DNA of 64,000 nucleotides, from NCBI RefSeq assembly GCF_029504575.1, contig NZ_JAQFII010000001.1, forward strand, positions 3,479,001-3,543,000, given 5' to 3'. This document shows positions 14,989 through 51,506 of this stretch, in pieces. The notes under the pieces were generated by a model. It ran no database searches and was not told the DNA's origin. It worked only from the letters and a program-made list of their open reading frames with translations. Both the position numbers and the translations under genes were made by a program. The first letter of the stretch is position 1, and each line of letters starts with the position of its first letter. Origin of the DNA: Streptomyces sp. SPB162. GTDB taxonomy: Bacteria; Actinomycetota; Actinomycetes; Streptomycetales; Streptomycetaceae.

Positions 14989-15043
14989 GGCCGGGTGCGG
15001 CGCTGCTCGCCCCCGCAGCCCATTATGGGAGGGCCCTCCGACA

Positions 15044-15772
15044 ATGCCCCTGCCTCTGGCCACACCCCTGCCGGACGCCGTTTCCCAGGCGGTACCGCTG
15101 GCGGTCAACGTCCTGGACGCCCACGACCTGCTGGCGACCTTCGGCGCGATCGGCATCGCCGTAGTGCTGTTCGCGGAAACCGGCCTGCTGATCGGGTTCT
15201 TCCTGCCCGGCGACTCGCTGCTGTTCACCGCCGGCCTGCTCTGCGTCCCCGGCGCGTCGGACGTGGTGCATCTCTCCCTCTGGCAGGTCCTCGTCGCGGC
15301 GTCCGCCGGGGCGCTGCTCGGTGCGCAGACCGGCTACTGGATCGGCAGGCGGGGCGGTCCGCCGCTGCTCGCCCGGATCCGCAACCCCCACCTGCACGAC
15401 GGCGTCGGGCGCGCCGCCGAGCTGCTGGAGCGGTACGGGCACGCCAAGGCCGTGGTGCTGGCGCGCTTCGTCCCGGTCGTGCGGACCGTGCTCAACCCGA
15501 TGGCGGGCGTGCTGAACGTGCCCGCGCGCACCTTCACCCTCTGGCAGGTCATCGGCGGCCTCGTCTGGTCCGTCGGCCTCGTGCTCGGCGGCTACGCGCT
15601 GGGTTCCTCGGTGCCGCACGTCGACAAGTACCTGCTGCCGATGGTCGCGCTCATCGTGATCATCTCGCTCACGCCGCTCGCACTGGAGCTGTACCGCTCG
15701 CGGAACCGCGTCAAGGCGGCCGGTACGGCGCCCGGTACCGGTACTGGTCCCGACGCGCCGGAGGGCCTGTGA
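15044..15772 (+). CDS. DedA family membrane protein
   Basis: 242-residue membrane protein of the DedA/SNARE-associated family, now linked to undecaprenyl phosphate or phospholipid flipping. Family signatures are E-TG in FAETGLLIGFFLPGDSLLF, then GYWIGRRGG and the arginine motif FVPVVRTVLNPMAG. It is coupled to the PAP2 phosphatase by a GTGA overlap, which suits a lipid-carrier recycling pair: PAP2 dephosphorylates and DedA translocates. The promoter region contains the BlaI dyads. Confidence 0.92.
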   Translation: MPLPLATPLPDAVSQAVPLAVNVLDAHDLLATFGAIGIAVVLFAETGLLIGFFLPGDSLLFTAGLLCVPGASDVVHLSLWQVLVAASAGALLGAQTGYWIGRRGGPPLLARIRNPHLHDGVGRAAELLERYGHAKAVVLARFVPVVRTVLNPMAGVLNVPARTFTLWQVIGGLVWSVGLVLGGYALGSSVPHVDKYLLPMVALIVIISLTPLALELYRSRNRVKAAGTAPGTGTGPDAPEGL

Positions 15773-24082: not shown

Positions 24083-24245
24083 TTTCCGCGCAGAAAAACA
24101 CCGTCGGAATACAACGATGCCCCGTTCAACGGATTACCCCGGCCGAGCCACCCCGCCCGTCCGAAGCATCGATGCCCCACCAACGCGCCACGCAGGGCAT
24201 CGCCAACCGACCCCAGCCGAACCCCAGGGCCACCGGAAACACGAA

Positions 24246-24274
24246 ACCCCAGGTCAGTTTCCTGACCTGGGGTT
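24246..24274. terminator. tRNA terminator hairpin
   Basis: CCCCAGGTCAG at 24246-24256 pairs with CTGACCTGGGG downstream, giving a stem of about 12 bp with a short loop. It sits just beyond the CCA end of the tRNA fragment, where the terminator of an intact tRNA gene would be. Confidence 0.75.
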
Positions 24275-24279
24275 CCCCA

Positions 24280-24331
24280 TGGGGCCGCCTTCGGGATTCG
24301 AACCCGAGACCTACGCATTACGAGACCGTGA
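24280..24331 (-). other. att site: 3' half of tRNA-Thr(CGU)
   Basis: Read on the minus strand, this is the anticodon loop CTCGTAA (anticodon CGU), the 3' anticodon stem, the T arm around GGTTCGAAT, the 3' acceptor strand AGGCGGC and the CCA end (24282-24280). The 5' half is missing: the bases before the loop (ACGGT) no longer pair with TGCGT. This displaced 3' end plus terminator is the usual scar of a tyrosine-recombinase element. The element lies to the right, and the intact tRNA should be at its other end. Confidence 0.8.
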
Positions 24332-24497
24332 GCGATCATGCCGCCGGATGGCGCGTGATGCCGTCAGGTGATGTCGCGCCTGATCAGAGCACACGCGAAG
24401 AGTTGACCCCTGCTACATCGTGATGCACCGTCCAAAGGCATCCGGCCACCGGCTGGCCACCGGGATGGTCACCACCGGTGGCCAGACACCGCATCAA

Positions 24498-26218
24498 GGA
24501 GGCGTCGCGAATTTACGGGTTGCTTCCAGGGCTTGGGCTCGTTGATGTGGTATGGGCCGTTTCGATGAGTTGATCAGTCCGTTGCGTGCGAAGTTCGAGG
24601 CGGTGACCCCGCATCTCAACGAGCGGCAGTGTCGTCTGCTGTACGCGGCGGAAGCGAGGCAGCTCGGACATGGCGGGATCGCGGTGGTGGCCAGGGCCGC
24701 GGGGGTTTCCACGGGGTGCGTCAGTCGGGGGCCTGGTCGAGTTGGAGGACGATGCCGAGCCCGATGGCCGGGTACGTCGACGAGGTGCGGGGCGTCCCGC
24801 GCTGGTGGCGAAGGACCCGGGGCTCCGGCCTGCACTGCTGGCGTTGGTTGAGGACAGCACGCAAGGTGACCCGATAGGGCCGTTGACCTGGACCACGAAG
24901 TCGCTGCGGCATCTGGCCACCGAGCTCGCCGCTCAGGGCCGCACGGTGGGTCGGGACGTGATCGCCGCATTGTTGAAGGAGGCGGGCTTCAGCCTGCGGA
25001 GCAACGCAAAGGTCCTGGCAGGCAGCGGCCACCGCGACCGCGACGCCCAGTTCCACCACCTCAACGACAAGGTGCGCCAGTTCCTCGACGCCGGCGACCC
25101 CGTGATCAGCGTGGACACGAAGAAGAAGGAACAGATCGGGCTGTTCGCGCAAGGAGGGCGGGAATGGGCACCGCCCGGCAGGCCGGTGAAGGTCCTCGAT
25201 CACGACTTCCCCTCCCAGGCGGTCGGCACCGCGATCCCGTACGGCATCTACGACGTCGGACGCAACACCGGCTACGTCGTGGTGGGCACCGACCATGACA
25301 CCGCCGCGTTCGCGGTGGCCGCCCTGCGCCGCTGGTGGAAGGAGGAGGGTCGCGCGGCCTACCCGAACGCGCGCCGCCTGTTGATCACTGCCGACGGTGG
25401 CGGCTCCAACAGTTCCCGGGCCAGGGCATGGAAAGCGAACCTCGCCGCTCTGGCCACCGAGACCGGCCTTCAGATCAGTGTGTGTCACCTGCCTCCCGGC
25501 ACGTCGAAATGGAACAAAGTGGAGCATCGTCTGTTCTCGTTCATCTCGATGAACTGGCGGGCACGCCCTCTGACCAGCTACGAAGTTGCCCTGAACCTCA
25601 TCGCGGCCACCACCACGAGCACCGGGCTGAGCGTGAATGCCCGCCTGGACGAGGGCACCTACCCCATCGGTATCGAGATCGACGCCCAGCACGCCGCCGC
25701 GCTCACCATCACCCCCGACAGCTTCCACGGCGAGTGGAACTACACGATCCCGCCCCAGGCCGGCGTCCCCGCCGTGCCCCTCCAGCCACCCACACGCCGG
25801 GCCCACCCCCGTCACGCCCACACCTTCGACACCACCATGGCAACCCACCCCGTACTGACCGGGATGACCCGACACGCACTCGATCAACTCACCACAGAAG
25901 TACGCACGTTGATCGATCAAGTGCCCACCGGCCAGCGCCCCCGCCACCGCAAACTCGCCGTGGAAAGCATGATCTGGGCCGCCGTCCTCGATCAGCGCGG
26001 GCTGCCCTGCTCACTGACCGCCCACCTCTTCCGCATCGGCGAGAACCAGATGCGCACCCTGATCAAGCAGATCCGGCCCCTGCTCCAGCAACACGGCCAC
26101 CACGCAGAACCACTGCCCATCCGACTCGTCGACCCCAGCGAACTTGCCGCCTATGTCATGCACGCAACATCAATGACAGGCTGACGTGACACGCTCCATC
26201 AATTAATCGACGCCCCCC
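24498..26218 (+). mobile_element. ISAzo13-type insertion sequence
   Basis: About 1.7 kb. Imperfect ends match as GG-GGCGTCG-n-AATT on both sides (left from 24498, right complement ending 26218). The transposase fills the element. Confidence 0.75.
24552..26184 (+). pseudogene. ISAzo13 family transposase, one-base frameshift
   Basis: DDE transposase. The first 60 codons (start ATG 24552) encode the HTH part and run into VSTGCVSRG. The remaining about 480 codons continue in another frame from LVELEDDAEPD. The shift is one extra base in the G5 run at 24727-24731. Catalytic-region landmarks include VISVDTKKKE, LLITADGGGSNSSR and WNKVEHRLFS. Either the copy is dead or the run was miscalled; the rest is intact. 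Confidence 0.85.
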
Positions 26219-31574: not shown

Positions 31575-32714
31575 TCAGACGGAGTCAGGCTGCATCCTCG
31601 CGATTCGGGCCGCCAGTTCCTCCACATCAAGGTCGACTGCTTGGCTCGGGAACCAGGACAGCCGGAGCCCATTCTCGGCCACCTCCTCGGGCAGCCCCAT
31701 CGCAGTGAGAACATGGCTAGGGGTGTACGACGCGCTCGTGCACGCAGAGCCTGTCGCGACAGCTACCTGCTGCTTCAGCATGACGATGAGCGCTTCAGCG
31801 TCCACACCGTCGAAGGACAGGTTGAGGATGTGTGGAACGGCATGATCCTGGTCCCCGTTGATCCGGAATCGCGTCTTCGCGAGGGCCTCCAGAAGCCGGT
31901 AGCGGAGGCTCTCCGCGTTCCTACTCCACTCAGCATGGCCCTTCTCGAAGATCTTCGCTGCTTCAGCAAGTCCCATGATCAACGGCACCGGCAAAGTCCC
32001 CGGCCGCAGCTTACGTTCCTGACCGCCACCAAACATGATCGGCTGCAGCGGCAGCCTCTCCCAGCCCCGGCGGCGCATAACCAACATCCCCACACCCTTG
32101 GGAGCTCCGATCTTGTGGCCGCTGACGCTCATCATGTCGATCGGTGCGGTCAGATCGTGAGGGACCTTCCCGTATCCCTGCGCTGCATCCACATGCAGGT
32201 ATGTCGGGGTCTCCCTCAGAAGCTCAGCAAGTTCGGCCACCGGCTGGACGACACCCGTCTCGTTGTTCACGTGCATCAGTGACACAAGGAGCGTGTCCGG
32301 ACGCAGACGCTCCTTCACTGCCTCGAGAGAGACCCGACCCGACGAGCCTGGCTTGATGAATTCGACCTCGAAACCGCGAGACTGCAGGTGCTCCAGGGGC
32401 TCGATCACCGCCTTGTGCTCGATTGCCGAGGTGATGATGTGACGCCGACCACTCTGCTCTCCGTGGGGGGCAAGGCCAAGCAAGGCGATGTTGTTGCTCT
32501 CGGTTGCCCCACTGGTGAAGATCAACTCGTCTGGTTCGGCACGTACGGTGCCGGCGAGGTACTCCCGCGCCTGTTGCACCGCACGCTTCGCGCGGGTCCC
32601 GTACTCGTGCGTTCGGGACCCCGCGTTACCAAAGTCCTCAGTCATCCAGTGCATCACCACGTCGGCCACACGTGGGTCCACACGCGTCGTCGCCGCAACA
32701 TCGAGATAGGTCAC
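31575..32714 (-). CDS. dndA: Cysteine desulfurase DndA
   Basis: 379-residue PLP enzyme that takes sulfur from L-cysteine as a persulfide for DNA phosphorothioation and assembles the Fe-S cluster of DndC. Lys201 in SGHKIG binds PLP. Cys325 in ATGSACTS is the persulfide carrier. I used GTG 32714 (MTYLDVAATT) since that matches the family start; GTGs a few codons upstream are in frame. It is divergent from dndB across an 80-bp regulatory gap, the arrangement I recall for the classical Streptomyces dnd locus. Confidence 0.95.
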   Translation of the reverse strand: MTYLDVAATTRVDPRVADVVMHWMTEDFGNAGSRTHEYGTRAKRAVQQAREYLAGTVRAEPDELIFTSGATESNNIALLGLAPHGEQSGRRHIITSAIEHKAVIEPLEHLQSRGFEVEFIKPGSSGRVSLEAVKERLRPDTLLVSLMHVNNETGVVQPVAELAELLRETPTYLHVDAAQGYGKVPHDLTAPIDMMSVSGHKIGAPKGVGMLVMRRRGWERLPLQPIMFGGGQERKLRPGTLPVPLIMGLAEAAKIFEKGHAEWSRNAESLRYRLLEALAKTRFRINGDQDHAVPHILNLSFDGVDAEALIVMLKQQVAVATGSACTSASYTPSHVLTAMGLPEEVAENGLRLSWFPSQAVDLDVEELAARIARMQPDSV

Positions 32715-32794: not shown

Positions 32795-33922
32795 GTGGGA
32801 TCATCCTCTTCGCAGCTCGCTGACACCGCCACCTCCGCTGGCTTCGACTACATCTTTCCGGCCATCCGGGGCGTACAGGCGGGGCGCGAGTTCTACGTGT
32901 CCATGTGCCCCTTGCGCCTCATCCCGAAAATCTTCCTCTTCGACGAGGACGAACTGGGGCCAGAGGTTCGTGCCCAGCGCACCCTGAACAAGGGGCGCCT
33001 CCCCGCGCTTACTCGCTACATCGTTGAGAATCCGGACGACTACGTCTTCAGCGCGCTCACCGCATCCGTCGATGGAGAGATGCACTTCGAGAGCATCTCC
33101 GACTCCGGCATGGGGATGCGCGCCGGCCAGGTCCGCATCCCCATGGCCGCTCGCTTCTTGATCAACGACGGGCAGCATCGGCGCGCAGCCATCGAGCAGG
33201 CGCTGAAGGAGAATCCCGACCTCGGCGAGGAGACGATCGCCGTCGTGTTCTTCCATGACGCTGGACTCGCCCGCTGCCAGCAAATGTTCGCGGACCTCAA
33301 CCGGCATGCCGTGCGTCCACAGCGTTCAATTGGCGTTCTGTACGACCACCGCGATGAACTAGCCATCATGACCCGTTTCTTGGCCATGACGTCCCCAGTC
33401 TTCAAGGGGCACATCGACTTGGAAAACAGCAACCTCGCTCAACGTTCACGCAGGCTCTTCACTCTCAGCGCCCTCTGCTCTGCCACCCAGTCGCTTCTCC
33501 AGGGACTGGACGTCGAGAAGGACAAGGCCCAACAGCTGGCCGAAAAATACTGGGAGGCAGTCGACGCAGTCGTGCCCGAGTGGGGGATGGTGCGGCGCCG
33601 CGAGCTCGTAGCTCGGGAGGCACGCAAGGACTATATCCACAGCCACGGGATCGCCTTGCATGCCCTCGGGCGGATCGGTAATTCACTCCTGCGCAACTCC
33701 GACTCTCCCAAGGTGTGGCAATCGAAGCTGAAGCCCTTGACTTCGGTTGACTGGTCACGCACAAACCCGGACTGGGAAGGTCGCGCGATGATCGGCGGTC
33801 GCGTGTCGAAGAGCCATCAGAACTTGACCCTGACTGTGAACTACCTGCGTCATCACATGAAGCTCGAGCTCAGTCCGGAAGAGCAGCGTGTAGAGGACGC
33901 ATACCTGCAAGGAGTTTCATGA
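32795..33922 (+). CDS. dndB: DndB, DGQHR-domain transcription regulator of the dnd operon
   Basis: 375 residues. The DGQHR motif (in FLINDGQHRRAA, about residue 125) is the family hallmark. DndB is not needed for sulfur insertion itself; in studied systems it represses dnd transcription and its loss alters modification frequency. Start GTG 32795 lies 16 bases after the palindrome and has no clear ribosome binding site, so the message may be near-leaderless. Stop overlaps dndC (ATGA). Confidence 0.9.
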   Translation: MGSSSSQLADTATSAGFDYIFPAIRGVQAGREFYVSMCPLRLIPKIFLFDEDELGPEVRAQRTLNKGRLPALTRYIVENPDDYVFSALTASVDGEMHFESISDSGMGMRAGQVRIPMAARFLINDGQHRRAAIEQALKENPDLGEETIAVVFFHDAGLARCQQMFADLNRHAVRPQRSIGVLYDHRDELAIMTRFLAMTSPVFKGHIDLENSNLAQRSRRLFTLSALCSATQSLLQGLDVEKDKAQQLAEKYWEAVDAVVPEWGMVRRRELVAREARKDYIHSHGIALHALGRIGNSLLRNSDSPKVWQSKLKPLTSVDWSRTNPDWEGRAMIGGRVSKSHQNLTLTVNYLRHHMKLELSPEEQRVEDAYLQGVS

Positions 33923-35412
33923 GCACCCCAAAGCCGACGGCGCCCTTCCAGGGCAAGGTCCTCGCTGAAGTGGTCAGTGAACTCACGGCAGAAATCCGTG
34001 AGCTCTATACAGCTGACGAAGTGCCTTGGGTCATCGGTTACAGCGGTGGCAAGGACTCCACTGCCGTGCTGCAACTCGTCTGGCTGGCCCTTCAGGGGCT
34101 GCCGGCTGAGCAGCGCACCAAACCAGTGCATGTGATCAGCACGGACACACTTGTCGAAAATCCCGTCGTGGCTGCCTGGGTCACTCAGTCTCTCGACACC
34201 ATGGGGAAGGCTGCGTCGGAGCAGCAGCTCCCCATCGAGCCGCACCGACTGATTCCGGAGGTCAAGGACACCTTCTGGGTAAATCTCATCGGCCGCGGTT
34301 ACCCAGCCCCTCGCCCCAAGTTCCGTTGGTGCACAGAGCGATTGAAAATCAAGCCGTCGAATGCGTTCATCCGCCGCGTCGTACGGCGTCACGGGGAGGC
34401 GATCCTCGTTCTCGGTATTCGAAAGACGGAGAGCCAGGCACGCGCCCGGTCAATGGAGAAGCACGAGAAGCGCCGGGTTCGGGACCGCCTCTCGCCCAAC
34501 GGGAACCTGCCGAACTCACTCGTCTACAGCCCCATCGAAGCGTGGGGTACTGATGAGGTGTGGATGTTCCTGATGCAGTACTCCAACGCGTGGGGACATC
34601 GGAACAAGGATCTACTGACCATGTACCAGGGTGCCTCTGAGGACTCCGAGTGCCCTCTGGTTGTGGACGACACCACCCCTACCTGCGGTGACAGCCGCTT
34701 CGGGTGCTGGACCTGCACTCTCGTGGACAAGGACAAGTCCATGACTGCCATGATCCGCAACGACGAGGAGAAGGAGTGGATGCGGCCCCTGCTCGATCTC
34801 CGCAATGAGCTCGACGATGTGTCCAAGGAACGGGAGACCAGGGACTTCCGCCGTATGAACGGTAGTGTCCAGCTCTTCAACGACGGCGTCATCCACGGGC
34901 CCTACACGCAAGAAGCGCGACAGACATGGCTCAGGAAGCTTCTTGAAGCGCAGACTCTCGTGAGGCGGATCGCCCCAGAGAGCGTACGTGGCATCGAGTT
35001 GATCACGATGGAGGAGCTGCACGAGATCCGCCGCATCTGGGTCTTCGACAAGCACGAGGTCGAGGACACGTTGCCAGCAATCTATGAGAAGGCCACGGGT
35101 GAGACGTTCCCGGGGCGGCCCCTCGATGAGCAGCTTGTCCTTGGGGCGGAGGAGATTGACCTCCTCAAGGAAGTATGCGATGGCGACGATATCCACTTCA
35201 CGATGACTCGTGAACTTCTCGCGGTCGAGCGGCAGCATCGAACGATGACTCGACGCTCGGGACTGTTCAAGGAGCTGGAGAAGACCATCAAGAAGGGCTT
35301 CTACGAGAACGAGGATGATGCCCTGGCGTTCGCGAAGCGTAAGCGGGAGATGCGTGAGACCGCCCCGACCTATCTGACGCTGAACGAAGAGATTACTGAT
35401 GCACCTTCATAA
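33919..35412 (+). CDS. dndC: DndC, Fe-S ATP pyrophosphatase of phosphorothioation
   Basis: 497-residue member of the PAPS-reductase/adenine-nucleotide alpha hydrolase group. The PP-loop SGGKDS is at residues 42-47. Cysteines for a 4Fe-4S cluster lie in RWCTERL, SECPLV, TCGDSRFGCWTC. It activates the DNA backbone phosphate with ATP before sulfur transfer. Coupled upstream to dndB and overlapping dndD by 14 bases. Confidence 0.95.
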   Translation: MSTPKPTAPFQGKVLAEVVSELTAEIRELYTADEVPWVIGYSGGKDSTAVLQLVWLALQGLPAEQRTKPVHVISTDTLVENPVVAAWVTQSLDTMGKAASEQQLPIEPHRLIPEVKDTFWVNLIGRGYPAPRPKFRWCTERLKIKPSNAFIRRVVRRHGEAILVLGIRKTESQARARSMEKHEKRRVRDRLSPNGNLPNSLVYSPIEAWGTDEVWMFLMQYSNAWGHRNKDLLTMYQGASEDSECPLVVDDTTPTCGDSRFGCWTCTLVDKDKSMTAMIRNDEEKEWMRPLLDLRNELDDVSKERETRDFRRMNGSVQLFNDGVIHGPYTQEARQTWLRKLLEAQTLVRRIAPESVRGIELITMEELHEIRRIWVFDKHEVEDTLPAIYEKATGETFPGRPLDEQLVLGAEEIDLLKEVCDGDDIHFTMTRELLAVERQHRTMTRRSGLFKELEKTIKKGFYENEDDALAFAKRKREMRETAPTYLTLNEEITDAPS

Positions 35413-37390
35413 CATCGAACTCCGCGACTTTGGCGCCTACCGCGGCAAGCAGTCCCTTGATCTGAGAGTTCAACCGGGGCGGCCGATCATCCTGATCGGT
35501 GGCCTCAACGGATGCGGCAAGACGACCTTGCTCGACGCCATCCAGCTGGTTCTCTATGGTCCGAGGGCACGCTGCAGCGGTCGGGGGAGTCGCTCATACG
35601 ACTCCTACCTGCGCGAAAGCATCAATCGTAAGGCGGACGCTGCCGAGGGCTCGGAGATCGCTCTGGAGTTCTCCGTGGTCGTGGATGGCCACGAGAGGCA
35701 TTACCGCGTAGTCAGGAGCTGGCGTCTGAGCGGCAAGCAGCTCAAGGAGCACTTGAACGTCCTTGTCGACGGCCAGTATGACCGGATTCTCAGCGATGGC
35801 TGGCCGGATCACGTCGAGGACATCCTCCCGCTAGAGGTGGCCTCACTTTTCTTCTTTGACGGGGAAAAGGTTGAGTCTCTCGCGGACCCCGAGCGTGCAG
35901 CCGCCGTGATCGAGTCCGCAGTCCATTCCCTCCTGGGCGTGAACACGGTTGAGCAACTCCGCACTGATCTCCTGGCGCTACAGCGCCGACAGCGGTTGTC
36001 CAACGAGGACCAGGCCCTCATCGACCAGATCCGAGCCCAGGAAGCCGAGCACGAAGCGGCGACGGTGTACGTCGCGGACCTCACTCAGACGCTCGGCAGC
36101 ACACGGTCCAGGTGCGATCGCCTGCAGGTTCGCCTTAACAAGGTAGAGAAGTCATTCATGCGGGCAGGCGGGAAGCTCTTCGAGCGGCAGAAGGAGCTGG
36201 AAGGTGATCGAGCAGCCGTGGCCGATCGCCTCACGTCAGAGCGCCAGGCCCTGCGCTCTCTTGCTCAAGGTCCTCTTCCTCTCCTCATGCTCCCGCAGCA
36301 GCTTGCCACGCTCCGGGACCAGGCAGAGCGCGAGAAGGAAGCTGACGATGCCACCCGAGTCGTCGGCGTTCTAGAAGAGCGCGATGCCTGGCTCCTTGAC
36401 CAACTTCCTGCGTCCGTTCCGGCTGCTGCCCGCACGGCCTTGAAGCGGAAAATGACCGCTGACCGCAACAAGCGCGAGAGTTCAGCCGAGCTCAAGCACA
36501 GCCTTGACCTGCCCCCGGACATGCTCCAGCAACTCTCGGCGCTGAATGAAGCACTCACCCGAGACGCGTCCCGCGCGCGAGAGCTCCTCAGAGAGTCTGC
36601 AGGCACAGCCGATCAGCTTGACACCGCCGATCGCCTCCTAGCGAGTATTCCAGACCAGGGGCTCATCAAGGACCTTGTCGAAGAGCGCAGCGAGGCCATG
36701 GATGCGCTCGCAGTAGCCAAGGATGAACTCAGGCGCGGTGAAGAACAGTTGGCGGAGGCGAGGGGCCGACGCGATCGGATTGCCGCCGACCTGGAACGAG
36801 CACAGCAGAAGCGGATTAAGACGCTGATCGAGGTCGAGGAGCTGGAGCGCATCGTGACCTATGCCGACAAGGCACGGGACACACTGGAGAAGTTTGGCGC
36901 TGCTCTGCTGCGGCGGCACATCAGCCGTCTGGAAGTTGCCGTCCTTCAGAGCTTCAAGGCATTGATGCGCAAGACTGGCCTCATCCACGACCTGCGGATC
37001 GACACGGATAAGTTCAACCTCACTCTTGCGGACTCGGACGGAGAGGCCATCGACCCCGCACGACTCAGCGCCGGCGAGCGGCAGCTACTGGCCATCTCTC
37101 TGCTCTGGGGTCTGGCCAAGGTTGCCGGTAACCGGCTGCCGAGTGTGATCGACACGCCCCTGGGCCGCCTCGACAGCCGACACCGTCAACATCTGGTTGA
37201 TCGCTACTTCCCCAACGCTGGACGGCAGGTACTCCTGCTGTCCACAGACGAAGAGATCGATGAGAAGCTTCTGGCTCGATTGAAGCCGTCCCTCGCGCAC
37301 ACCTACACCCTTGTTCACGACGACACGACGTTCACCACCACCGTTGAGCCTGGATACTGGTGGACAGCAGGAGTCCCGCATGCCGCTTGA
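35399..37390 (+). CDS. dndD: DndD, SMC/RecN-like ATPase of phosphorothioation
   Basis: 663 residues. Walker A GGLNGCGKTT is at 34-43. Coiled-coil arms occupy about 180-520. The ABC signature LSAGERQLLA (about 556) and Walker B IDTPLGRLD complete the head. DndD is thought to open or nick DNA to expose the phosphate for sulfuration. Overlaps dndC at its start and dndE at its end. Confidence 0.95.
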   Translation: MHLHNIELRDFGAYRGKQSLDLRVQPGRPIILIGGLNGCGKTTLLDAIQLVLYGPRARCSGRGSRSYDSYLRESINRKADAAEGSEIALEFSVVVDGHERHYRVVRSWRLSGKQLKEHLNVLVDGQYDRILSDGWPDHVEDILPLEVASLFFFDGEKVESLADPERAAAVIESAVHSLLGVNTVEQLRTDLLALQRRQRLSNEDQALIDQIRAQEAEHEAATVYVADLTQTLGSTRSRCDRLQVRLNKVEKSFMRAGGKLFERQKELEGDRAAVADRLTSERQALRSLAQGPLPLLMLPQQLATLRDQAEREKEADDATRVVGVLEERDAWLLDQLPASVPAAARTALKRKMTADRNKRESSAELKHSLDLPPDMLQQLSALNEALTRDASRARELLRESAGTADQLDTADRLLASIPDQGLIKDLVEERSEAMDALAVAKDELRRGEEQLAEARGRRDRIAADLERAQQKRIKTLIEVEELERIVTYADKARDTLEKFGAALLRRHISRLEVAVLQSFKALMRKTGLIHDLRIDTDKFNLTLADSDGEAIDPARLSAGERQLLAISLLWGLAKVAGNRLPSVIDTPLGRLDSRHRQHLVDRYFPNAGRQVLLLSTDEEIDEKLLARLKPSLAHTYTLVHDDTTFTTTVEPGYWWTAGVPHAA

Positions 37391-37757
37391 GACGGTTCGC
37401 CTTTCACAAACGGCGAAAGAGCAGCTCATCTGGCTGAAGCGCAACACTGGTCTGACCCAGTGGAATGAGCTGTGCAGGTGGGCACTTGCCCTGTCACTAC
37501 GCGACTCATCCACACCACTGGTCAAGGAAGTCACCACCGACTCCAACGTCGAGATGTCGTGGAAGACGTTCTCCAGTCCCTATGGAGACATCTACCTCGC
37601 TCTCCTCAAGCAGCGGTGCCTGATGGACGGTGAAGAGCTGACGGACGAGGCGATCTCCAGGACGCTCACAGTCCACCTTCACCGCGGTGTCGGCTTCCTG
37701 GCCGGCCGTAGCGATCTGCGTTCCATCGAGCAGCTCGTCTCCACGGCCACAGGGTAG
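37380..37757 (+). CDS. dndE: DndE, nicked-DNA-binding subunit
   Basis: 125 residues of the DndE family, which forms a tetramer that binds nicked double-stranded DNA. Starts PLETVRLSQTAKEQL with a cluster of basic residues (LKRNTG) for DNA binding; ends around RSIEQLV. Overlaps dndD by 11 bases and is the last gene of the operon. Confidence 0.93.
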   Translation: MPLETVRLSQTAKEQLIWLKRNTGLTQWNELCRWALALSLRDSSTPLVKEVTTDSNVEMSWKTFSSPYGDIYLALLKQRCLMDGEELTDEAISRTLTVHLHRGVGFLAGRSDLRSIEQLVSTATG

Positions 37758-38588: not shown

Positions 38589-38977
38589 GGGCCCGACTCG
38601 TGCGTATGAGCCCCTGGCTCATACGGTCGCTCATCCCGGCCCGCGTAGTCGGCACCTACGTGCTCTACACGGCCACGGGTGTGCCCCGCTATGTCGGGCG
38701 CAGTGACACAGACATCCGGCGGCGCCTGCTTCGGCACTGCACCGATCGGACCGGGGCCTACTTCACCTACGACGTGCACCACAACCCCGCGAATGCCTTC
38801 GAGGTGGAGTGCGCTCTATTTCATTCACTCTCACCCCAACTGGCAAACCGCATCCATCCGGATCGCCCCAACTTTCATGAGACCGCTTGTCTCTTCTGCC
38901 TACCCACACGACGAGCAGCACAGAACTTTCGGTGTCTGCCCGAGAATGCCATCCTGAGGAATGAGGCCGCACGATGA
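38585..38977 (+). CDS. GIY-YIG nuclease domain protein
   Basis: 130 residues, all of it one GIY-YIG fold. The GIY strand is TYVLY (24-28) and the YIG strand is RYVG (35-38). Catalytic Arg is among RRRLLRH (45-51), the metal-binding Glu is in AFEVECALFH (E73 or E75), and the conserved Asn is N88 in LANRIHP. All expected active-site residues are present, so it should nick or cut DNA. Starts at a GTG overlapping the HTH gene (GTGA) and overlaps the ATPase (ATGA). Likely effector of the module. Confidence 0.8.
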   Translation: MRARLVRMSPWLIRSLIPARVVGTYVLYTATGVPRYVGRSDTDIRRRLLRHCTDRTGAYFTYDVHHNPANAFEVECALFHSLSPQLANRIHPDRPNFHETACLFCLPTRRAAQNFRCLPENAILRNEAAR

Positions 38978-40716
38978 CGAATCCCATTTTCCTGGCGCCC
39001 GACAATCAGCGTGCCAACATCATCCAAATTGACCGCGCCCTGGAATCAATGCGCGATGCTGGCTTCGACCTCACGGCGGCTATCGGCGAACCGCTAGATA
39101 ACTCGATCCAGGCCGAGGCAACACTGATGCGGGTTCTCCCGCTCTACGGGCCGAAAAAGAAGTCGATCCACAGCTTCATCATCGCTGACAACGGCGTGGG
39201 AATCGATCCGTCGATCATGCACAATGTCCTGTCAATGGGCTACAGCGCCCGCTACAACCAGCGGGATGGTCTAGGTCGCTTCGGGATGGGCCTCAAGCTC
39301 GCCGGGCTCAGCCTGGGTGAACGCATCGACGTCTACAGCAAACGTGCCGGCGACCCCCAGATCCATCACAGTTACATTGACCTTGAGGAGGTACGCGCCG
39401 GCAAGCAGCAGTACATTGCAACCCAGGAGGTCTCGGACTGGCCCGAAGAAGCAGGCAAGCTCATGGTCGGCCGGGATGGACGGCCGCTGGCCTCTGGCAC
39501 TGTGGTCATTTTCGGCAAAGTCGACCGCCTGCAGAGCGGAGGAACCTACGGAACTTCCCTGGATGAGAAGCTCTCGGACCTGCGTAAGTTCATCGCGCGC
39601 GCCTATCGCACCTACATCGACACGGGACGCACTTTCGAGCTTGAGAACAAGGTAGTCACATTGCACGACCCGCTGTTCCTCCGGGACAACCCTCGTATCA
39701 TTTCCAGGTACAAGTCTCAGAAGCTTGACCCTCGTGGCCATCTTATCGAGGAAGGCGACTTGGACGTCGAGGGTCACAAAGTACATGTTGCCGTCGCGCT
39801 GGTTCCGGCAGAATTCCGCCCCTGGAAAGGCGCTGGTGGCGAATGCGACCACCGAGGCGAGGATATCCGAGAGTTCCAGATCAACGCCGAAAATGCGGCT
39901 AGGGTCAGCATTCTGCGCAATGGTCGGGAAATTTACTACGACGTCGTTCCGCGGCTTCTCGACTCAGTAAGCCGTAACGACAAGGTTGGCCGATACATCG
40001 GTATCGAGGTGACCTTCCCGGCCGACCTGGACGACTACTTCCAAGTGCGAAACGTCAAGCGTGGTGCCGAGCCTGTGACGAAGCTTCGCAACCAACTGCA
40101 CGACTGGCTCAAACGCCCGATGTCTCAAGCTCGCATGCAGATTCGCCAGTACTGGGGAGACGTTGAAGCTCGCGAGCGCCTCAGCAAGGGCGAGCACAGC
40201 AGCAGCATGGCCGTAGCAGAGCGCACGGATCCCAGCCTCCCCCGGGGTCTTGCAGGCCGGGACGTCACGGCAGAGCAGGAAGAGGAGGTTGTCCAGCACG
40301 CGGCGGAAGACATGGGTCTGAGCCCCGAGACAGACGCGACCAAGATCGCTGAGCTCCGAGAGCAGATCCGTACCAAGCCCATCACACTGCTTGACGGTAG
40401 CTGGCCCGGTAAGGAGTTCCTTGAGGTCCATCACCTCAACGGCAAGTCGGTTGTGAAGTTCAACCACCGGCATTCGTTCTTCCGCGATGTGTATGGACCG
40501 CTCAAGAAGATCGCCGACGATGGCGCCGAGGGCATGAGTCCGGAGGACGTCCTCGACCTGGCACGCCGAGCCGAGGCTGCGATCGACCTCCTGTTCATGG
40601 GCTACGCGCGTGCCGAAGCCCAGCACCCTAGCCCCGACGAGCAGTACAGCGAACTGCGCACCTACTGGGGCATGTTCACCGGTGCCATGCTCAAGGAAGA
40701 GCTGAAGGACGAGTGA
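38974..40716 (+). CDS. GHKL (MORC/HSP90-like) ATPase
   Basis: 580 residues. The Bergerat ATP-binding fold is clear: N box GEPLDNSIQAEA (E39, N43), G1 box ADNGVGID (72-78) and G2 box GLGRFGMGLK (99-108). The following transducer part resembles MORC and MutL-type ATPases. The C-terminal 200 residues contain an acidic, helical region with no known domain. GHKL ATPases of this kind work as ATP-gated DNA clamps in defence systems. Third gene of the coupled operon, placed to control the GIY-YIG nuclease. Confidence 0.85.
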   Translation: MTNPIFLAPDNQRANIIQIDRALESMRDAGFDLTAAIGEPLDNSIQAEATLMRVLPLYGPKKKSIHSFIIADNGVGIDPSIMHNVLSMGYSARYNQRDGLGRFGMGLKLAGLSLGERIDVYSKRAGDPQIHHSYIDLEEVRAGKQQYIATQEVSDWPEEAGKLMVGRDGRPLASGTVVIFGKVDRLQSGGTYGTSLDEKLSDLRKFIARAYRTYIDTGRTFELENKVVTLHDPLFLRDNPRIISRYKSQKLDPRGHLIEEGDLDVEGHKVHVAVALVPAEFRPWKGAGGECDHRGEDIREFQINAENAARVSILRNGREIYYDVVPRLLDSVSRNDKVGRYIGIEVTFPADLDDYFQVRNVKRGAEPVTKLRNQLHDWLKRPMSQARMQIRQYWGDVEARERLSKGEHSSSMAVAERTDPSLPRGLAGRDVTAEQEEEVVQHAAEDMGLSPETDATKIAELREQIRTKPITLLDGSWPGKEFLEVHHLNGKSVVKFNHRHSFFRDVYGPLKKIADDGAEGMSPEDVLDLARRAEAAIDLLFMGYARAEAQHPSPDEQYSELRTYWGMFTGAMLKEELKDE

Positions 40717-40725
40717 TTTGCGGTT

Positions 40726-40752
40726 CGCGCCGGGGCGCAGTTCCCCGGCGCG
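40726..40752. terminator. Terminator after the GHKL ATPase gene
   Basis: CGCGCCGGGG (40726-40735) pairs with CCCCGGCGCG (40743-40752), loop of 7. Separates the three-gene operon from the DGQHR gene, which therefore has its own promoter in 40753-40936. Confidence 0.75.
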
Positions 40753-40936
40753 GTCGCGCTAAATCAAGCCGCTGTGGCTCGTTTTGCCAGCCGCAACAGC
40801 ATCAATTGCTGTATCGAGCCCCATAAGAACCTCGTGACCTGCAAGATGTCGTCAGAAGACTTGACGTCACCCCATCGCGATCGGGCAGCCGAAGCTGCCG
40901 ACGCGCAACTGGTACAGCGTAGGAAGGCAGTGAAGA

Positions 40937-43105
40937 ATGTTCGGCTCGGGTAGCAGGCTCACGTTCCGTGATTACGTGCAGGGGACGTGGGGCAGCTTCG
41001 ACACTCCTGCGGGACGAGTCGACTACATCATGACGAAGGCGCGTCTCGGCGGTGAAGCAGACACGCCAGAGCGTCAACTCACCAAGAGCCTCGCTCCCGT
41101 CCGCGAAGTCATGGACGCCGGCGACCTGGACTTCAACCAGCTTCTCCAGCGCGACCTCGACGATCACCGCGTGGCGGTTAACCTGATCCCCTACCTGCTC
41201 AAACCTCAGACGACAGGCCCCGCCTTCTTCCCTCCGATCGTGGCCGTTCTGCTTCCCTTCCGTAGCAAACGACCCACCTCCTTCCCAGCGCTCGGGGAGC
41301 TGGCGTCTGTCAATGCCGACGAGGCCAGCTGGCAGGAGCAACGTGCAGGCAGCGCCTTCCAAGTCCATCGCCTACTCGCCTCCGACGGACAGCCGCACGG
41401 TGCGAACGTGGGCAAACTATGGTGGAACCGTTCTGAGTCGAGCCTGGTTGTCCTTGACGGCCAGCACCGCGCAATGGCTCTCCTTGCAATTGAGCGCACT
41501 CTGACCAACTCATGGCAGGACACGTCTGCGGTCAAATACCGCTCCTTCTACGAGCATCAGGTCCGGCGAGTGCTGGAGCAGCACGGCGCCGGTGAGCCCG
41601 ACCTCTCGAAGGTGGAGGTCCCGGTCACCGTGTGCTGGTTCCCGGAGCAGACCGGAGAAGGTTCCCGGCCTCACGAAGCTGCCCGAAAGCTCTTTGTTGA
41701 CGTCAACAAGGAGGCCCGGCCCCCTAGCGAGTCCCGCATCATCTTGCTCTCAGATGCTGAACTCTCCAATGTTCTTACTCGGAGCATGCTCAGCGAGCTT
41801 CGAAGCCGCAGCGACGAATCTTACCTTCCCCTTTACGCCGTGGAGTACGACAACCCCGAAGTCAACAGCCACAGGCCTGCGCGGTGGTCGGTCCTTACAA
41901 ACATCAACCTTCTCAAGATGGCCGTGAACCGCTGCATCTTCGGTCCCTCGAAGTACCTCACCAACGTCGCACAAGGCATCTCGGGGAAAGAGAGCGAACT
42001 GCAGCGCGATGAGTTCATGCGCAACCAGCTCGACCTCGCAACCCTTTTCGAAAGGTACTTCGAGGACGGCGGCATTCCCTTCGATCGGGACACTCTCGGG
42101 GACAAACAGTTCCCTCTCGGTAGGATGGAGGCAATCAGCGCACGATTCAAGGAGACGTGGGGCAGGGCAATCCTGACACTGCTCTCTAAGACCACGCCCT
42201 ATGCAGCACATGCCAGTGCCTTGACCAAGCTCAAGGACGACTGGCATGTCGCCGATACCTTTGCGGCGCTGGCTCACGATGCTCTGTTTGGTGGCGTGGG
42301 AGTTTTCTGGACGCTCCGAGACAGCCACGATCACTACCTGGAGCACAGAGATAACACTGAGCGCCGGCTACCCAAATCGGACGTCATCCGGGCCTGGGAG
42401 GCACTCAAGGGGAAAGAGGAAGACTTCGATCAATACCGTGCTCAGGAGTATCTGGCGTCGACTCGCCCTGAACGCGTCAAGCGTTGCAAGGATGCCTACA
42501 ACGTGCTCAACACCCACGCGTGCCAACTCGGGCTTGTTATGACGATGGGCTCACTGTGGGAAATGCGGAAATCGCAGCCGGGCGGCGTGGATCTACAGGA
42601 TCTTCCAGCCTTCGCTGAATCTCTCGTAGACGCCTGGAACTCATTCTTCCAAATCGAGCACAGCCGCGCACGTGACCGAAAAGCCGCCTTCAACAAGACC
42701 GGCATCACAAACCCGATCAATCAGATCGGGAACATGGAGTCAGCTCAGGCTGTCTACTTTCGCTATTTCTGGATGCAGGCGTTGGCGGTTTCCACGGCAT
42801 GGTCGCACGTGGCCTCGTGGGTACCGGACCGTGGCGAGTTCGACAGGAAGCTCGGCGAGGCCCGGCGCATGTACCTGGATCTATGCATTAAGCAGCAGCT
42901 CAGAGCCCTGAAGACGAACCAACCGACAGCGAAGGATGAAGATCTCCGCCCTGTTGCGGAGAAACACGCGAATACTGCACTGAAGAAGGCTCTCAAGGAC
43001 TGGTTTTCCGTGTCGGACAACGACTTCGATGCCTGGCTCAGCCAGCCGATCCGCCGCAGTAAACAGGGGGAACTTAGCCTCGATGACGCGGTAGCTGGAT
43101 CGTAG
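40937..43105 (+). CDS. Large DGQHR-domain protein (DndB-like motif)
   Basis: 722 residues. SSLVVLDGQHRAMALLAI (about 168-185) carries the DGQHR motif shared with DndB, and LFVDVNKEARPP follows as in that family. The rest (about 230-700) is helical with no domain I recognise. At twice the size of DndB, it is not a simple duplicate. Position behind dndBCDE and the nuclease/ATPase operon suggests a sensor or regulator for the same system. Start ATG 40937 after GGAAGG. Confidence 0.75.
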   Translation: MFGSGSRLTFRDYVQGTWGSFDTPAGRVDYIMTKARLGGEADTPERQLTKSLAPVREVMDAGDLDFNQLLQRDLDDHRVAVNLIPYLLKPQTTGPAFFPPIVAVLLPFRSKRPTSFPALGELASVNADEASWQEQRAGSAFQVHRLLASDGQPHGANVGKLWWNRSESSLVVLDGQHRAMALLAIERTLTNSWQDTSAVKYRSFYEHQVRRVLEQHGAGEPDLSKVEVPVTVCWFPEQTGEGSRPHEAARKLFVDVNKEARPPSESRIILLSDAELSNVLTRSMLSELRSRSDESYLPLYAVEYDNPEVNSHRPARWSVLTNINLLKMAVNRCIFGPSKYLTNVAQGISGKESELQRDEFMRNQLDLATLFERYFEDGGIPFDRDTLGDKQFPLGRMEAISARFKETWGRAILTLLSKTTPYAAHASALTKLKDDWHVADTFAALAHDALFGGVGVFWTLRDSHDHYLEHRDNTERRLPKSDVIRAWEALKGKEEDFDQYRAQEYLASTRPERVKRCKDAYNVLNTHACQLGLVMTMGSLWEMRKSQPGGVDLQDLPAFAESLVDAWNSFFQIEHSRARDRKAAFNKTGITNPINQIGNMESAQAVYFRYFWMQALAVSTAWSHVASWVPDRGEFDRKLGEARRMYLDLCIKQQLRALKTNQPTAKDEDLRPVAEKHANTALKKALKDWFSVSDNDFDAWLSQPIRRSKQGELSLDDAVAGS

Positions 43106-44406: not shown

Positions 44407-45153
44407 TCACACCTCCGGACCGGCCAGCTCGAAGTCGTCCTTCGTCAGTTCGGCGCGCAGCCGCTCCTCGGCGACATCGGCGTAGTGCGCGGACAGCTCG
44501 ACGCCCACGAAACGGCGTCCCTCGCGCAGGGCCGCGACCCCCGTGGAGCCGCTGCCGGTGAACGGATCGAGCACGGTGCCGCCCTCGGGGCAGACCTGGA
44601 CGAGCTGCTGCATCACCTCGACCGGCTTCTGGGTGATGTGGACACGGCCCTTGCGGGGCTGGGAGGCGATGTAGTGCCCCGGCAGGTAGAGGTCGCGGGT
44701 GTTGTCGAGGGAGCCCTTGACGCCCCAGACGATGAACTCCGAGTCCTGCTTCGGCCCGCCCTTGCGGGGCCGGCTGGAGGGCTTGATCCACGGGATGGTG
44801 CCACTCCAGGTCCACCCGGCCATCTGCAGGGCGTCCGAGGTGGTCGGTTCCTGGCGCCAGTCGGTGAAGACCATGGCGACCGCGTGCTCGGTCGAGGCCC
44901 GGTACGCCTCGGTGAGCAGTTCGGTCAGCCAGGATCGGTAGGAACGCTGGTCGCGGTTCTCTCCGGGGAAGTTCTGCAGGTCGTGCGCACTGTTGCTGGT
45001 GACGTACTTGGCTCGCGCGGTGCGACCCGTGCGGTCCGAGCTGGTACGTCCGCCGGAGTTGTACGGCGGGTCTGTGATGACGGCGTTGACGCTCTCGTCC
45101 GGGAGGGTCTTCAGCACGGTGAGGGCATCGCCTCGGTGCAGCGTGTAGCTCAT
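44407..45153 (-). CDS. Site-specific DNA methyltransferase (beta type, N4-cytosine/N6-adenine)
   Basis: 248 residues. Catalytic motif IV ITDPPYNSGG (about 26-35) comes before the SAM-binding DPFTGSGSTGVAAL (about 190-205), the order of beta-class enzymes. TQKPVEVMQQLV is the usual motif X helix. No restriction enzyme lies beside it, so it is either an orphan or protects the element during transfer. Recognition sequence cannot be read from the protein. Confidence 0.92.
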   Translation of the reverse strand: MSYTLHRGDALTVLKTLPDESVNAVITDPPYNSGGRTSSDRTGRTARAKYVTSNSAHDLQNFPGENRDQRSYRSWLTELLTEAYRASTEHAVAMVFTDWRQEPTTSDALQMAGWTWSGTIPWIKPSSRPRKGGPKQDSEFIVWGVKGSLDNTRDLYLPGHYIASQPRKGRVHITQKPVEVMQQLVQVCPEGGTVLDPFTGSGSTGVAALREGRRFVGVELSAHYADVAEERLRAELTKDDFELAGPEV

Positions 45154-45648: not shown

Positions 45649-45735
45649 ATGCAGCATGCCCTGACACCCCCACGCCCCGACCCAACACCGCTGTCCGTCG
45701 GCCACCGCCGAACCGGTGAACGGCAGCGGCGATGA
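45649..45735 (+). CDS. 28-aa ORF coupled to the transfer operon
   Basis: ATG 45649 has a good RBS (GAGGAG) and its TGA (45733-45735) overlaps the ATG of the NlpC/P60 gene (ATGA). The peptide MQHALTPPRPDPTPLSVG and its basic tail have no family. The main gene has only a weak site (GGCAGCGG) of its own, so the short ORF probably drives its translation. Confidence 0.5.
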   Translation: MQHALTPPRPDPTPLSVGHRRTGERQRR

Positions 45736-46877
45736 AGAAGACCACCGGAGCCGTCGTCGGTCTCTTCGCATCCGGCCCGCTGCTGCTGGCCGTTCCCATC
45801 CTCGCCATCGGTGCGGGTTCGGCTTCGGCCTCCTGCTCGACCGGCGGTGCACAGTCTGTGGATACCGCTGCCGTTGCTTCACAGGTGAAGGCCATCCTGG
45901 ACGGTGGCGACAAGGGCGCGGTCTCCGTCGCGGGGCTTGATGACCCTGCCGACCAGGTCCCCAACGCCAAGACGATCCAGGCCACCGGCGTCGCGATGAA
46001 CATTCCGGCCCGGGGGCAAGTCGTGGCCCTGGCAACCGCGCTACAGGAAAGCGGCCTGCGGAACCTGACCTACGGCGACCGCGATTCGCTGGGACTGTTC
46101 CAGCAGCGGCCGTCGCAGGGATGGGGCACGGCGAACGAGATCCTCGATCCGGTGCACTCCTCGACCAAGTTCTACGAGGGGCTGCAGAAGGTCTCGGGCT
46201 GGCAGTCCCTGTCCGTCACCCAGGCCGCTCAGGCCGTACAGAGGTCGGGCTTCCCGGAGGCGTATGCCAAATGGGAGCCGCTGGCCACCGCCTTGCAGAA
46301 GGCCATCGCCCCCCTGCTGTCGAAGTCCGGCGGCGGGTCGCCGAGCCCGTCTCCGTCTGGCTCTGCTGCCACCGAGACCGCTCCGTCCGATACCGCGGGC
46401 GGTTGTACGGCCGGCGGGGACGGAACCGACTTCGGGACCATCCCTCCGGGCGCGGTGCCTGCCGAGTACAAGATCCCAGCCGATGCTCCGGCGAAGGTCC
46501 AGACGGCGATTCGCTGGGCCCTCGGCCAGCTCAAGACGCCGTACCAGTGGGGCGGGAGCTGCACCGACTCCCACGGGCCCGACCCCATGGGCCGGTGCGA
46601 CTGCTCCTCTCTCATGCAGCAGGCGTACAAGGCCGCCGGAGTCACCCTGACGCGCACCACGTACACGCAGGTCAAGGAGGGCAAGGCGACGTCGGCCGAT
46701 GCCCTCAAGCCGGGTGACCTCGTCTTCACCGAGGGAACGGCCGAAGTCCCCGAGCACGTCGGGATGTTCATCGGCCAGGGCCTGATCGTCAACGCCCCGC
46801 ACACCGGTGACGTGGTGCGTATCGCGACGCTCGCGTCCTGGAAGTCGCAGATTCTCGCGGCCCGCCGAGTCGTCTGA
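45732..46877 (+). CDS. NlpC/P60 cell-wall hydrolase of the transfer apparatus
   Basis: 381 residues, secreted. A signal peptide (1-34) ends near SASASC. The N-terminal half (about 45-195) resembles a lysozyme-like segment with ALQESGLRNL and DSLGLFQQRPSQGWG. The C-terminal C40 domain (about 260-381) has Cys in RCDCSSLMQQAY, His in EHVGMFIG and a third polar residue in NAPHTGD. A two-domain wall-opening enzyme at the start of a type IV-like conjugation operon, equivalent to VirB1. Confidence 0.9.
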   Translation: MKKTTGAVVGLFASGPLLLAVPILAIGAGSASASCSTGGAQSVDTAAVASQVKAILDGGDKGAVSVAGLDDPADQVPNAKTIQATGVAMNIPARGQVVALATALQESGLRNLTYGDRDSLGLFQQRPSQGWGTANEILDPVHSSTKFYEGLQKVSGWQSLSVTQAAQAVQRSGFPEAYAKWEPLATALQKAIAPLLSKSGGGSPSPSPSGSAATETAPSDTAGGCTAGGDGTDFGTIPPGAVPAEYKIPADAPAKVQTAIRWALGQLKTPYQWGGSCTDSHGPDPMGRCDCSSLMQQAYKAAGVTLTRTTYTQVKEGKATSADALKPGDLVFTEGTAEVPEHVGMFIGQGLIVNAPHTGDVVRIATLASWKSQILAARRVV

Positions 46878-46963
46878 CCGGCCCTTCTCCCTCCCCCTTC
46901 TTCACGCACCGCCGCTCCGCCCTCTCGGGCTTCAGCGTGCAATAAATAGAACTGGAGTTCGTA

Positions 46964-47272
46964 ATGTATCTCGCCGACAAGGTCATCCAGCTCGCCTACG
47001 ACCCCGGGATCAAGCCGAACGAGGGCGGGCTTCCTGGCCTCGCCGTCCTCAAGCAGGTGATGGGCTCGATCAACCTCTTCGGGATCATCGCCGTGGTCGG
47101 TGCGCTCGCCGTCAGCGCGGGCGTGTGGGCGTGGGGCCACCACTCTGGTGGCCACCAGGCCGAGGCCAACGGCAAGAAGGGTGTGCTGGTCAGCGCTGGT
47201 GCGGCCCTTCTGCTGGGCGCCGCAAACGGCGTGGTCGCGTTCTTCAGCACGCTGGGGACGCAGGTCCACTGA
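46964..47272 (+). CDS. DUF6112 family membrane protein (pilin-like)
   Basis: 102 residues with two hydrophobic helices (INLFGIIAVVGALAVSAGVW and KGVLVSAGAALLLGAANGVV) separated by a short charged loop. Size and topology are like VirB2/TrbC pilins, and it sits where such a gene would be. RBS CTGGAG. Its stop overlaps the next start (TGATG). Confidence 0.82.
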   Translation: MYLADKVIQLAYDPGIKPNEGGLPGLAVLKQVMGSINLFGIIAVVGALAVSAGVWAWGHHSGGHQAEANGKKGVLVSAGAALLLGAANGVVAFFSTLGTQVH

Positions 47273-47961
47273 TGCCCTCCCACTCCTCGAACCCCGGCGG
47301 CGCATCTCGCGTGCGCCGCCGGGCGCTGCTCGGCACTGCCGTTCTGGTGGTGCTCGTCGCCCTCGCCGGCCTGGCTGCCTACCTCACCCGCGACGGCAGG
47401 GGCTCCTCCAAAGCTGAAACCCCACCCGCGAGTTCGCCTTCTCCTTCCTCGTCGGCCACTTCGCCGTCCGGATCGTCCTCGCCGAGGTCGCGCCCTCACT
47501 CCCTCCCGACTCCACCGGGCACCCACGATCCGATCGCGTTCGGGAAGGCAGCCGCCGAAGCGTTGTGGTCGTACGACACCCGTGCGTACTCCCAGGCAGA
47601 GCTGCTGACCGCCCTGCATGGGTGGCTGACCACCGAGACCAAGTACGCCGATCCCGCCTCGGTCGACGCGATCGTTCCCTCGCCCGTGCTGTGGAAGGAA
47701 ATGGCCGCCAACGGCCAGTTCGCCACCGCCAAGGTCAACGAGGGGCACTTCCCGGACTCGTTCACCCAGGCCCTTCAGGCGAATCCCGGAACGATCACGC
47801 AGGCGTACGTATATGCCGTGACCGTCTCCGGCAAGCAGTCGATCGCTTGGAAGGGCTCGCCTGCCGGTGGTGCGGAGAACCGCGTCACCACCCTCGCGGT
47901 CCAGTGCCGCCCTTCCCACCCGTGTGCCCTGGCCGGCGTCATGCCGTCCGTCGCGCCCTGA
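47272..47961 (+). CDS. Membrane-anchored conjugation protein (TcpC/VirB8-like position)
   Basis: 229 residues. One N-terminal helix (LLGTAVLVVLVALAGLAAYL) is followed by a Ser/Pro linker and an extracytoplasmic domain of about 140 residues (HDPIAFGKAAAEALWSYD...). Such an NTF2-like outer part is typical of VirB8/TcpC. Homology is not obvious from the sequence alone, so the name rests on topology and context. Confidence 0.7.
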   Translation: MPSHSSNPGGASRVRRRALLGTAVLVVLVALAGLAAYLTRDGRGSSKAETPPASSPSPSSSATSPSGSSSPRSRPHSLPTPPGTHDPIAFGKAAAEALWSYDTRAYSQAELLTALHGWLTTETKYADPASVDAIVPSPVLWKEMAANGQFATAKVNEGHFPDSFTQALQANPGTITQAYVYAVTVSGKQSIAWKGSPAGGAENRVTTLAVQCRPSHPCALAGVMPSVAP

Positions 47962-47988
47962 CCACCAACCCAGAAAGGAGGTATCGCC

Positions 47989-49377: not shown

Positions 49378-49520
49378 CACATCACATCCGGGGGCGGGCT
49401 GTTACGGCAGCCCGCCCCCCGCGCCCCGCGCAACCGATCCCCAGAAACGAGCCCCGCCATGACCTCCAGAAGAGCGTCGCGCGCCCCGCCCCCGCCCGCT
49501 CCCACCGTCTGGAACCCACC

Positions 49521-50993: not shown

Positions 50994-51027
50994 TGCCGGC
51001 CCTCCCTCCCCCTGAAAGAGCACCCCC

Positions 51028-51480
51028 ATGTCCCGCACCGCCAGCCCGCCCGCGCAGGACTTCGTGCCCTTCGCCACCGCCGCGCTCGACTTCCACTGCT
51101 CGCTCAACATTCCGGGCGGCCCCCTTGTCACCACCCGGGCCGAACTGGACACCCTGCACGCCCACCTCGTCTCGCTGCACGGCCTGCTCGACGCGCATGC
51201 CGCCCGCACCGGCCAGCTCGTGCCGGTCGAAGGCGACCAGCTTCGCGCCACCCGCACCCGGATCTGGCAGGCCGCCGATCACATCCACGCCGCGTACCAC
51301 GCAGCACCCCGGCCGGACTCCGGCGAGGTGCCTGACCGCGAGGGATGCCAGGCGGGCCTGCCCGAGGGGGCACCGGAGCTGACCATCTGCCAGCGCCACC
51401 AGCGCACTGCGCATCTGGTGCGCCGCCGCACCACCCCGGCCGACCTGCACTCGCCCTTCACGGGCCTCGTCCGCCGCTGA
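51028..51480 (+). CDS. DUF6238-type hypothetical protein
   Basis: 150 residues, helical (DFVPFATAALDFHCSLNIP, then LDTLHAHLVSLHGLLDAHA). It lies between SCO6880 and the VirB4-like ATPase in every-gene-forward order, 34 bases after the former. Function unknown. Confidence 0.72.
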   Translation: MSRTASPPAQDFVPFATAALDFHCSLNIPGGPLVTTRAELDTLHAHLVSLHGLLDAHAARTGQLVPVEGDQLRATRTRIWQAADHIHAAYHAAPRPDSGEVPDREGCQAGLPEGAPELTICQRHQRTAHLVRRRTTPADLHSPFTGLVRR

Positions 51481-51506
51481 CCCGCCTTCCGTCTGGAGAA
51501 ACGTTC

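Follow-up and report, generated by a model that had tools for sequence, protein, structure and literature searches.

A putative 99.8-kb T4SS-type integrative and conjugative element in a tRNA-Thr(CGT) gene of Streptomyces sp. SPB162

A 64,000-nucleotide stretch of the Streptomyces sp. SPB162 genome (contig NZ_JAQFII010000001.1, here C1, positions 3,479,001 to 3,543,000; hereafter “the window”) carries the left part of a very probable T4SS-type integrative and conjugative element (ICE), 99.8 kb long, which occupies a tRNA-Thr(CGT) gene in a Streptomyces-type chromosome. This assignment draws on a single assembly for the element itself, with mobility read from sequence. The 99.8 kb of DNA most likely arrived by bacterial conjugation.

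Boundaries of the element

A first-pass annotation of the window had proposed that half a tRNA-Thr gene at 24280-24331 marks the left edge of a large integrative element. A tRNA-Thr(CGT) 3' half (CTCGTAATGCGTAGGTCTCGGGTTCGAATCCCGAAGGCGGC) is indeed present, although its exact extent is narrower, namely 41 bp at window positions 24284-24324 on the minus strand. It retains everything 3' of the anticodon loop up to the last acceptor-stem base, as had been described, and also includes the loop itself (CTCGTAA, anticodon CGT). The 5' side is unpaired, again as described, with no tRNA called at the site by ARAGORN, and an Rfam search of the region returned chance matches only, leaving the half tRNA unrecognised. 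A 30-bp hairpin follows on its 3' side. The ends of the element comprise the following features (window positions unless prefixed C1).

24245-24274, minus strand: original tRNA terminator hairpin, which stayed with the displaced half; it is found again behind the intact tRNA of the relative G033
24284-24324, minus strand: left att repeat, the displaced tRNA-Thr(CGT) 3' half; perfect direct repeat of C1:3603050-3603090
24325-24497, no strand: left inner end (attP left arm), in which the motif CATGATCGCTC abuts the half tRNA
24325-64000, no strand: window portion of the element (its left 39.7 kb), which lies between the 41-bp repeats and runs on beyond the window to C1:3603049
C1:3600819-3602432: tyrosine integrase of 537 aa, 617 bp from the right repeat (PF00589, E 6e-17)

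The window has a single copy of the 28-base core of the half tRNA (none in any of 100 shuffles), which places the other att copy outside it, as the first-pass annotation had stated. Genome-wide there is exactly one other copy, at C1:3603050-3603077 on the same strand. Identity around this second copy spans exactly 41 bp, rather than the roughly 45 bases predicted, in the same orientation, and falls inside an intact tRNA-Thr(CGT) called by ARAGORN at C1:3603048-3603122. The predicted neighbours of the right-hand copy, an intact tRNA-Thr and an integrase (~0.6 kb away), are thus both in place. The two repeats are 99,766 bp apart, the intact tRNA being the right one, and an element expected to exceed 39.6 kb measures 99.8 kb. 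The sharp change in content noted at the half tRNA is also visible in base composition, GC being 67.8% inside the element vs 73.1% on both flanks.

Direct repeats at both ends (attL and attR) and an integrase at one of them are as expected of a T4SS-type ICE. The integrase gene is intact and contains the motifs FRGTRRGE (R), HDLR, LGH (GH) and Y. A small gene beside it (gene calls throughout came from a simple codon-usage script) looks helix-turn-helix-like by eye and matches no Pfam family over cut-off. On the left, the motif CATGATCGCTC beside the half tRNA is common to SPB162 and to a related element in genome G005, and the first 139 bp of the left arm are 72% identical to DNA adjoining a half tRNA on plasmid NZ_CP108391. 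On this 616-kb linear Streptomyces plasmid (NZ_CP108391.1), the half tRNA-Thr and its element-like left arm lie at ~15001-15175, and no intact tRNA was found in the 30 kb read around it.

An empty site in a related genome

The uninterrupted site expected of such an insertion is present in the relative G033, where both SPB162 flanks adjoin around one intact tRNA-Thr. The flanks are collinear, with ~3 kb of strain-specific DNA separating the sortase gene from the tRNA. Upstream of the 41-bp sequence in G033, 60 bp are 95% identical to the SPB162 right side, and downstream of it 75 bp are 77% identical to the SPB162 left side (57% at most in shuffles). Swapping the two sides gives identities at or close to those of shuffled sequence. 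In G033 a single contiguous sequence thus joins the region upstream of the SPB162 intact tRNA, the 41-bp repeat sequence and the terminator that lies beside the SPB162 half tRNA. Since the upstream part matches the right side and the downstream part the left, the left half tRNA with its terminator is the displaced original chromosomal 3' end, and the 3' end of the intact right tRNA, with its different terminator, came from the element. The uninterrupted G033 site supports the earlier proposal that the displaced 3' end arose when an element brought its own copy of the tRNA end. Neither of the two observations that the first-pass annotation held would contradict it was made: the intact tRNA does lie in direct repeat with the half, and the element-free G033 carries the same terminator behind an intact tRNA instead of a half one.

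Conjugation genes

Beyond its ends, the element contains a set of genes consistent with conjugative transfer.

44407-45153, minus strand: DNA methyltransferase, the first backbone gene shared with related elements (PF01555, E 1.8e-29)
45732-53012, plus strand: conjugation genes, comprising an NlpC/P60 lytic enzyme, DUF6112, VirB6/TrbL-like, PrgI/SCO6880-family and VirB4-like ATPase genes
C1:3544921-3546204, right of the window: VirD4/TraG-type coupling protein (PF12696, E 6e-35; PF02534, E 3e-20)

The genes at 45732-53012 are collinear in the related elements of genomes G005 and G010, with 73-96% protein identity, and the DNA methyltransferase is 84% and 91% identical in these two elements, respectively. 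The T4SS genes expected of this class are represented by the VirB4-like protein, which matches the CD1110 family with E 2e-18, under that model's cut-off, and by its PrgI/SCO6880 and VirB6-like neighbours. Because both the VirB4- and VirB6-like matches fall below the cut-offs of curated family models, the assignment of the T4SS apparatus relies in part on gene order and synteny. To the VirD4-type coupling protein can be added a relaxase with a MobA/VirD2 nuclease domain (PF03432, E 1e-9) and an adjoining MobC gene (PF05713); DnaB-N, WhiB and DUF2637 proteins are also encoded to the right of the window. An FtsK/SpoIIIE-type TraB was searched for across the genome, and none of its 12 matches lies between C1:3503284 and 3603090. 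Membership in the AICE class was rejected on this basis, since no FtsK/TraB-type translocase gene is found inside the element. Elsewhere in the same genome, relatives of the relaxase (C1:3712131, 3754522 and 4094758) and of the VirB4-like protein (C1:1129143) suggest other conjugative or mobilizable elements.

Cargo genes and insertion sequences

Between the left end and the conjugation genes lies a cargo zone, and further putative cargo is located near the right end.

24498-26218, plus strand: insertion sequence with an ISAz013-type DDE transposase (PF07592, E 3e-125)
31575-32669, minus strand: dndA cysteine desulfurase (NCBIfam TIGR03235, 519 bits vs cut-off 480)
32795-37757, plus strand: dndB, dndC, dndD and dndE, DNA phosphorothioation genes
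38974-43105, plus strand: HATPase (MzaB-like) gene and a gene for a 722-aa DGQHR/DndB-like protein, both weak family matches
C1:3575096-3587827 (~96096-108827 on the window scale, outside the window but inside the element): probable nucleoside-antibiotic cluster

The dnd phosphorothioation system is represented by dndA together with dndB-E. DndB was identified by PF14072 (E 1.5e-137) and DndC, DndD and DndE by PADLOC, DndD also by TIGR03185; the DndE match is modest. No dndFGH restriction genes were matched among the genes searched. The HATPase and DGQHR/DndB-like genes sit downstream of dndBCDE, where dndFGH would be, and are possibly an alternative restriction partner. By description, Streptomyces lividans likewise carries dnd phosphorothioation genes on a large genomic island.

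The probable nucleoside-antibiotic cluster encodes a CMP-5-hydroxymethylase-like enzyme (best PDB match, 5b6d), a TobZ/GdmN-like O-carbamoyltransferase, a glycosyltransferase, a methyltransferase and an epimerase, along with a 616-aa protein that matched nothing in Pfam or the PDB. Another row of genes near the right end (C1:3593957-3599689) includes radical SAM, arylmalonate-decarboxylase-like, HhH-GPD, PfkB, nucleoside deoxyribosyltransferase-like, dNK-like and MazG-like genes.

The insertion sequence at the left end has a 99.9% identical direct copy 53 kb away (C1:3556949-3558668), and the dnd zone, together with much of the conjugation region, lies between the two copies. The other IS pair is inverted, with copies at C1:3507973 and 3573024. 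Repeats of this kind raise the question of whether the element is now an immobile remnant, i.e., a former ICE no longer able to leave or transfer. Two internal pairs that are 99.8-99.9% identical could cause deletions or inversions, such rearrangement and the copies themselves could have disabled the element, and some predicted genes are short. We nonetheless consider loss of mobility unlikely, if well within the range of plausible outcomes, as the genes for the integrase, the relaxase, the coupling protein and the VirB4-like protein are all open and match their relatives over almost their full length, and both att repeats are perfect.

Related elements and reuse of the tRNA-Thr site

The SPB162 backbone (C1:3523407-3566407) and right-end genes are collinear with the elements of G005 and G010. 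The G005 element (C2:4942932-5038349) encodes an integrase 83% identical to that of SPB162, located beside tRNA-Thr(TGT), and the 3' half of this tRNA is repeated 95.4 kb away. The two elements hence share a collinear backbone, an att architecture and the motif beside the half tRNA, but differ in that the G005 element uses the TGT isoacceptor and is without the dnd genes and nucleoside cluster. The idea that an integrase this similar would mark the same target was accordingly discarded. A sortase gene close to the far end of the G005 element resembles the one left of the SPB162 half tRNA (68% identity over 68% of its length) and was treated as a paralogue. For G010, the integrase gene adjoins a tRNA-Met gene and no left-end repeat was found on its contig; the collinear element probably sits at tRNA-Met.

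More distant integrases are found beside tRNA-Thr(CGT) in G005, G012 and G026 (57-59% identical), at 1.7-2.4 kb from it in G008 and G009 (68-69%), and, with internal stops, at 3.2 kb in G019 (59%), while further related integrases lie at tRNA-Lys, tRNA-Arg and tRNA-Asn/Met. The anticodon loops targeted by the two 83%-identical integrases, CTCGTAA vs CTTGTAA, are one base apart, and a minor alteration of the integrase may therefore be enough to send the element to another target. Moreover, as each element brings its own replacement terminator, the 3' end and terminator of the tRNA gene may be repeatedly replaced by mobile DNA. We advance only tentatively the combined proposal, that ICEs with the same backbone switch between tRNA-Thr isoacceptors in this way and repeatedly replace the tRNA 3' end and terminator.

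Across 34 congeners, with copies counted over assemblies as they stand, fragmentation included, at least two copies of the tRNA 3' end were found in 24 (up to 13 copies), one in 7 and none in 3. The extra ends in 24/34 genomes identify tRNA-Thr(CGT) as a heavily reused insertion hotspot, and also mean that a half tRNA alone does not prove a particular element. Although the half tRNA is genuine and the prediction built on it was borne out, with halves this common in relatives the half by itself was weaker evidence than the first-pass annotation had assumed. The highest copy numbers were in G010 (13) and G028 (11), with 4 each in G009, G012, G018, G029 and G031; several copies occur in a row in G012, G028 and G029, and some halves lie far from the intact tRNA (1.9 Mb in G024; 2-3 Mb in G031).

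Such reuse, including the rows of tRNA ends, speaks for an alternative in which at least two elements inserted successively at the same tRNA and later fused, so that the 99.8 kb would not be one unit. The left IS/dnd zone and the right nucleoside cluster, both absent from the related elements, could be read in the same direction. We regard this accretion as improbable, however, because no third copy of the tRNA end is found inside the element, even with 3 mismatches allowed in the 28-bp core, and because the backbone and right-end genes keep the order seen in G005 and G010. A last alternative, that the SPB162 half is an orphan, an old decay product unconnected to the neighbouring genes, draws on the distant halves of G024 and G031. 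It is hardly credible given the perfect 41-bp repeat, an integrase at the opposite end of the element and the precise empty site seen in G033.

Proposed integration and transfer

Taken as a single ICE, the element would have integrated by recombination, catalysed by its tyrosine integrase, between the chromosomal gene and a 41-bp attP copy of the tRNA 3' half. The crossover probably took place in the anticodon loop, the starting point of the repeat in the SPB162 element and in that of G005. Comparison with G033 shows that integration rebuilt the right-end tRNA using the 3' half and terminator of the element, and pushed the original 3' half and terminator to the left end. From the gene content, excision would be carried out by the integrase, probably with the product of the adjoining helix-turn-helix gene, and form a circle; the relaxase would then nick this circle, and a single strand would reach a recipient by way of the coupling protein and T4SS.

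Comparison with known elements

T4SS-type ICEs are less often described in Streptomyces than AICEs. The two classes are set apart in actinobacteria by Ghinet et al. (PMC3218068), AICEs moving double-stranded DNA with one FtsK-like TraB. Like the SPB162 element, many AICEs (e.g., pSAM2 and SLP1) enter tRNA genes by a tyrosine integrase in Streptomyces, but they encode an FtsK-like TraB, and the SPB162 element has none. A closer counterpart is ICE01 of Streptomyces sp. RLB1-8 and RLB3-5, a T4SS-type ICE that sits in tRNA-Thr between 93-nt repeats and whose excision was demonstrated by PCR (Choufa et al., PMC9513070). Compared by description, both have a chromosomal tRNA-Thr site, a relaxase, coupling protein, VirB4, integrase and terminal direct repeats, and both are large (ICEs/IMEs in PMC9513070 span 86.0-99.7 kb), the direct repeat being 93 nt in ICE01 vs 41 bp here. 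That study also reported accretion at shared sites and differing elements at one site (PMC9513070). As described, then, the SPB162 element closely resembles ICE01 of RLB1-8: it is a T4SS-type ICE, and its insertion site is one used often. It is also the same in all essentials as the tRNA-gene islands delimited by Islander, for which a regenerated tRNA gene at one end and a displaced fragment at the other give the island end points (PMC4383910).

The 99.8-kb element is clearly a further case of a known kind of mobile element, newly delimited. Its value, useful though unsurprising, lies in precise boundaries with an empty site in one relative, and in two related elements at other tRNA genes. In addition, tRNA-Thr(CGT) emerges as a heavily reused docking site. 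Its cargo of DNA phosphorothioation genes and a probable nucleoside-antibiotic cluster suggests a route by which such genes may enter and leave Streptomyces chromosomes.
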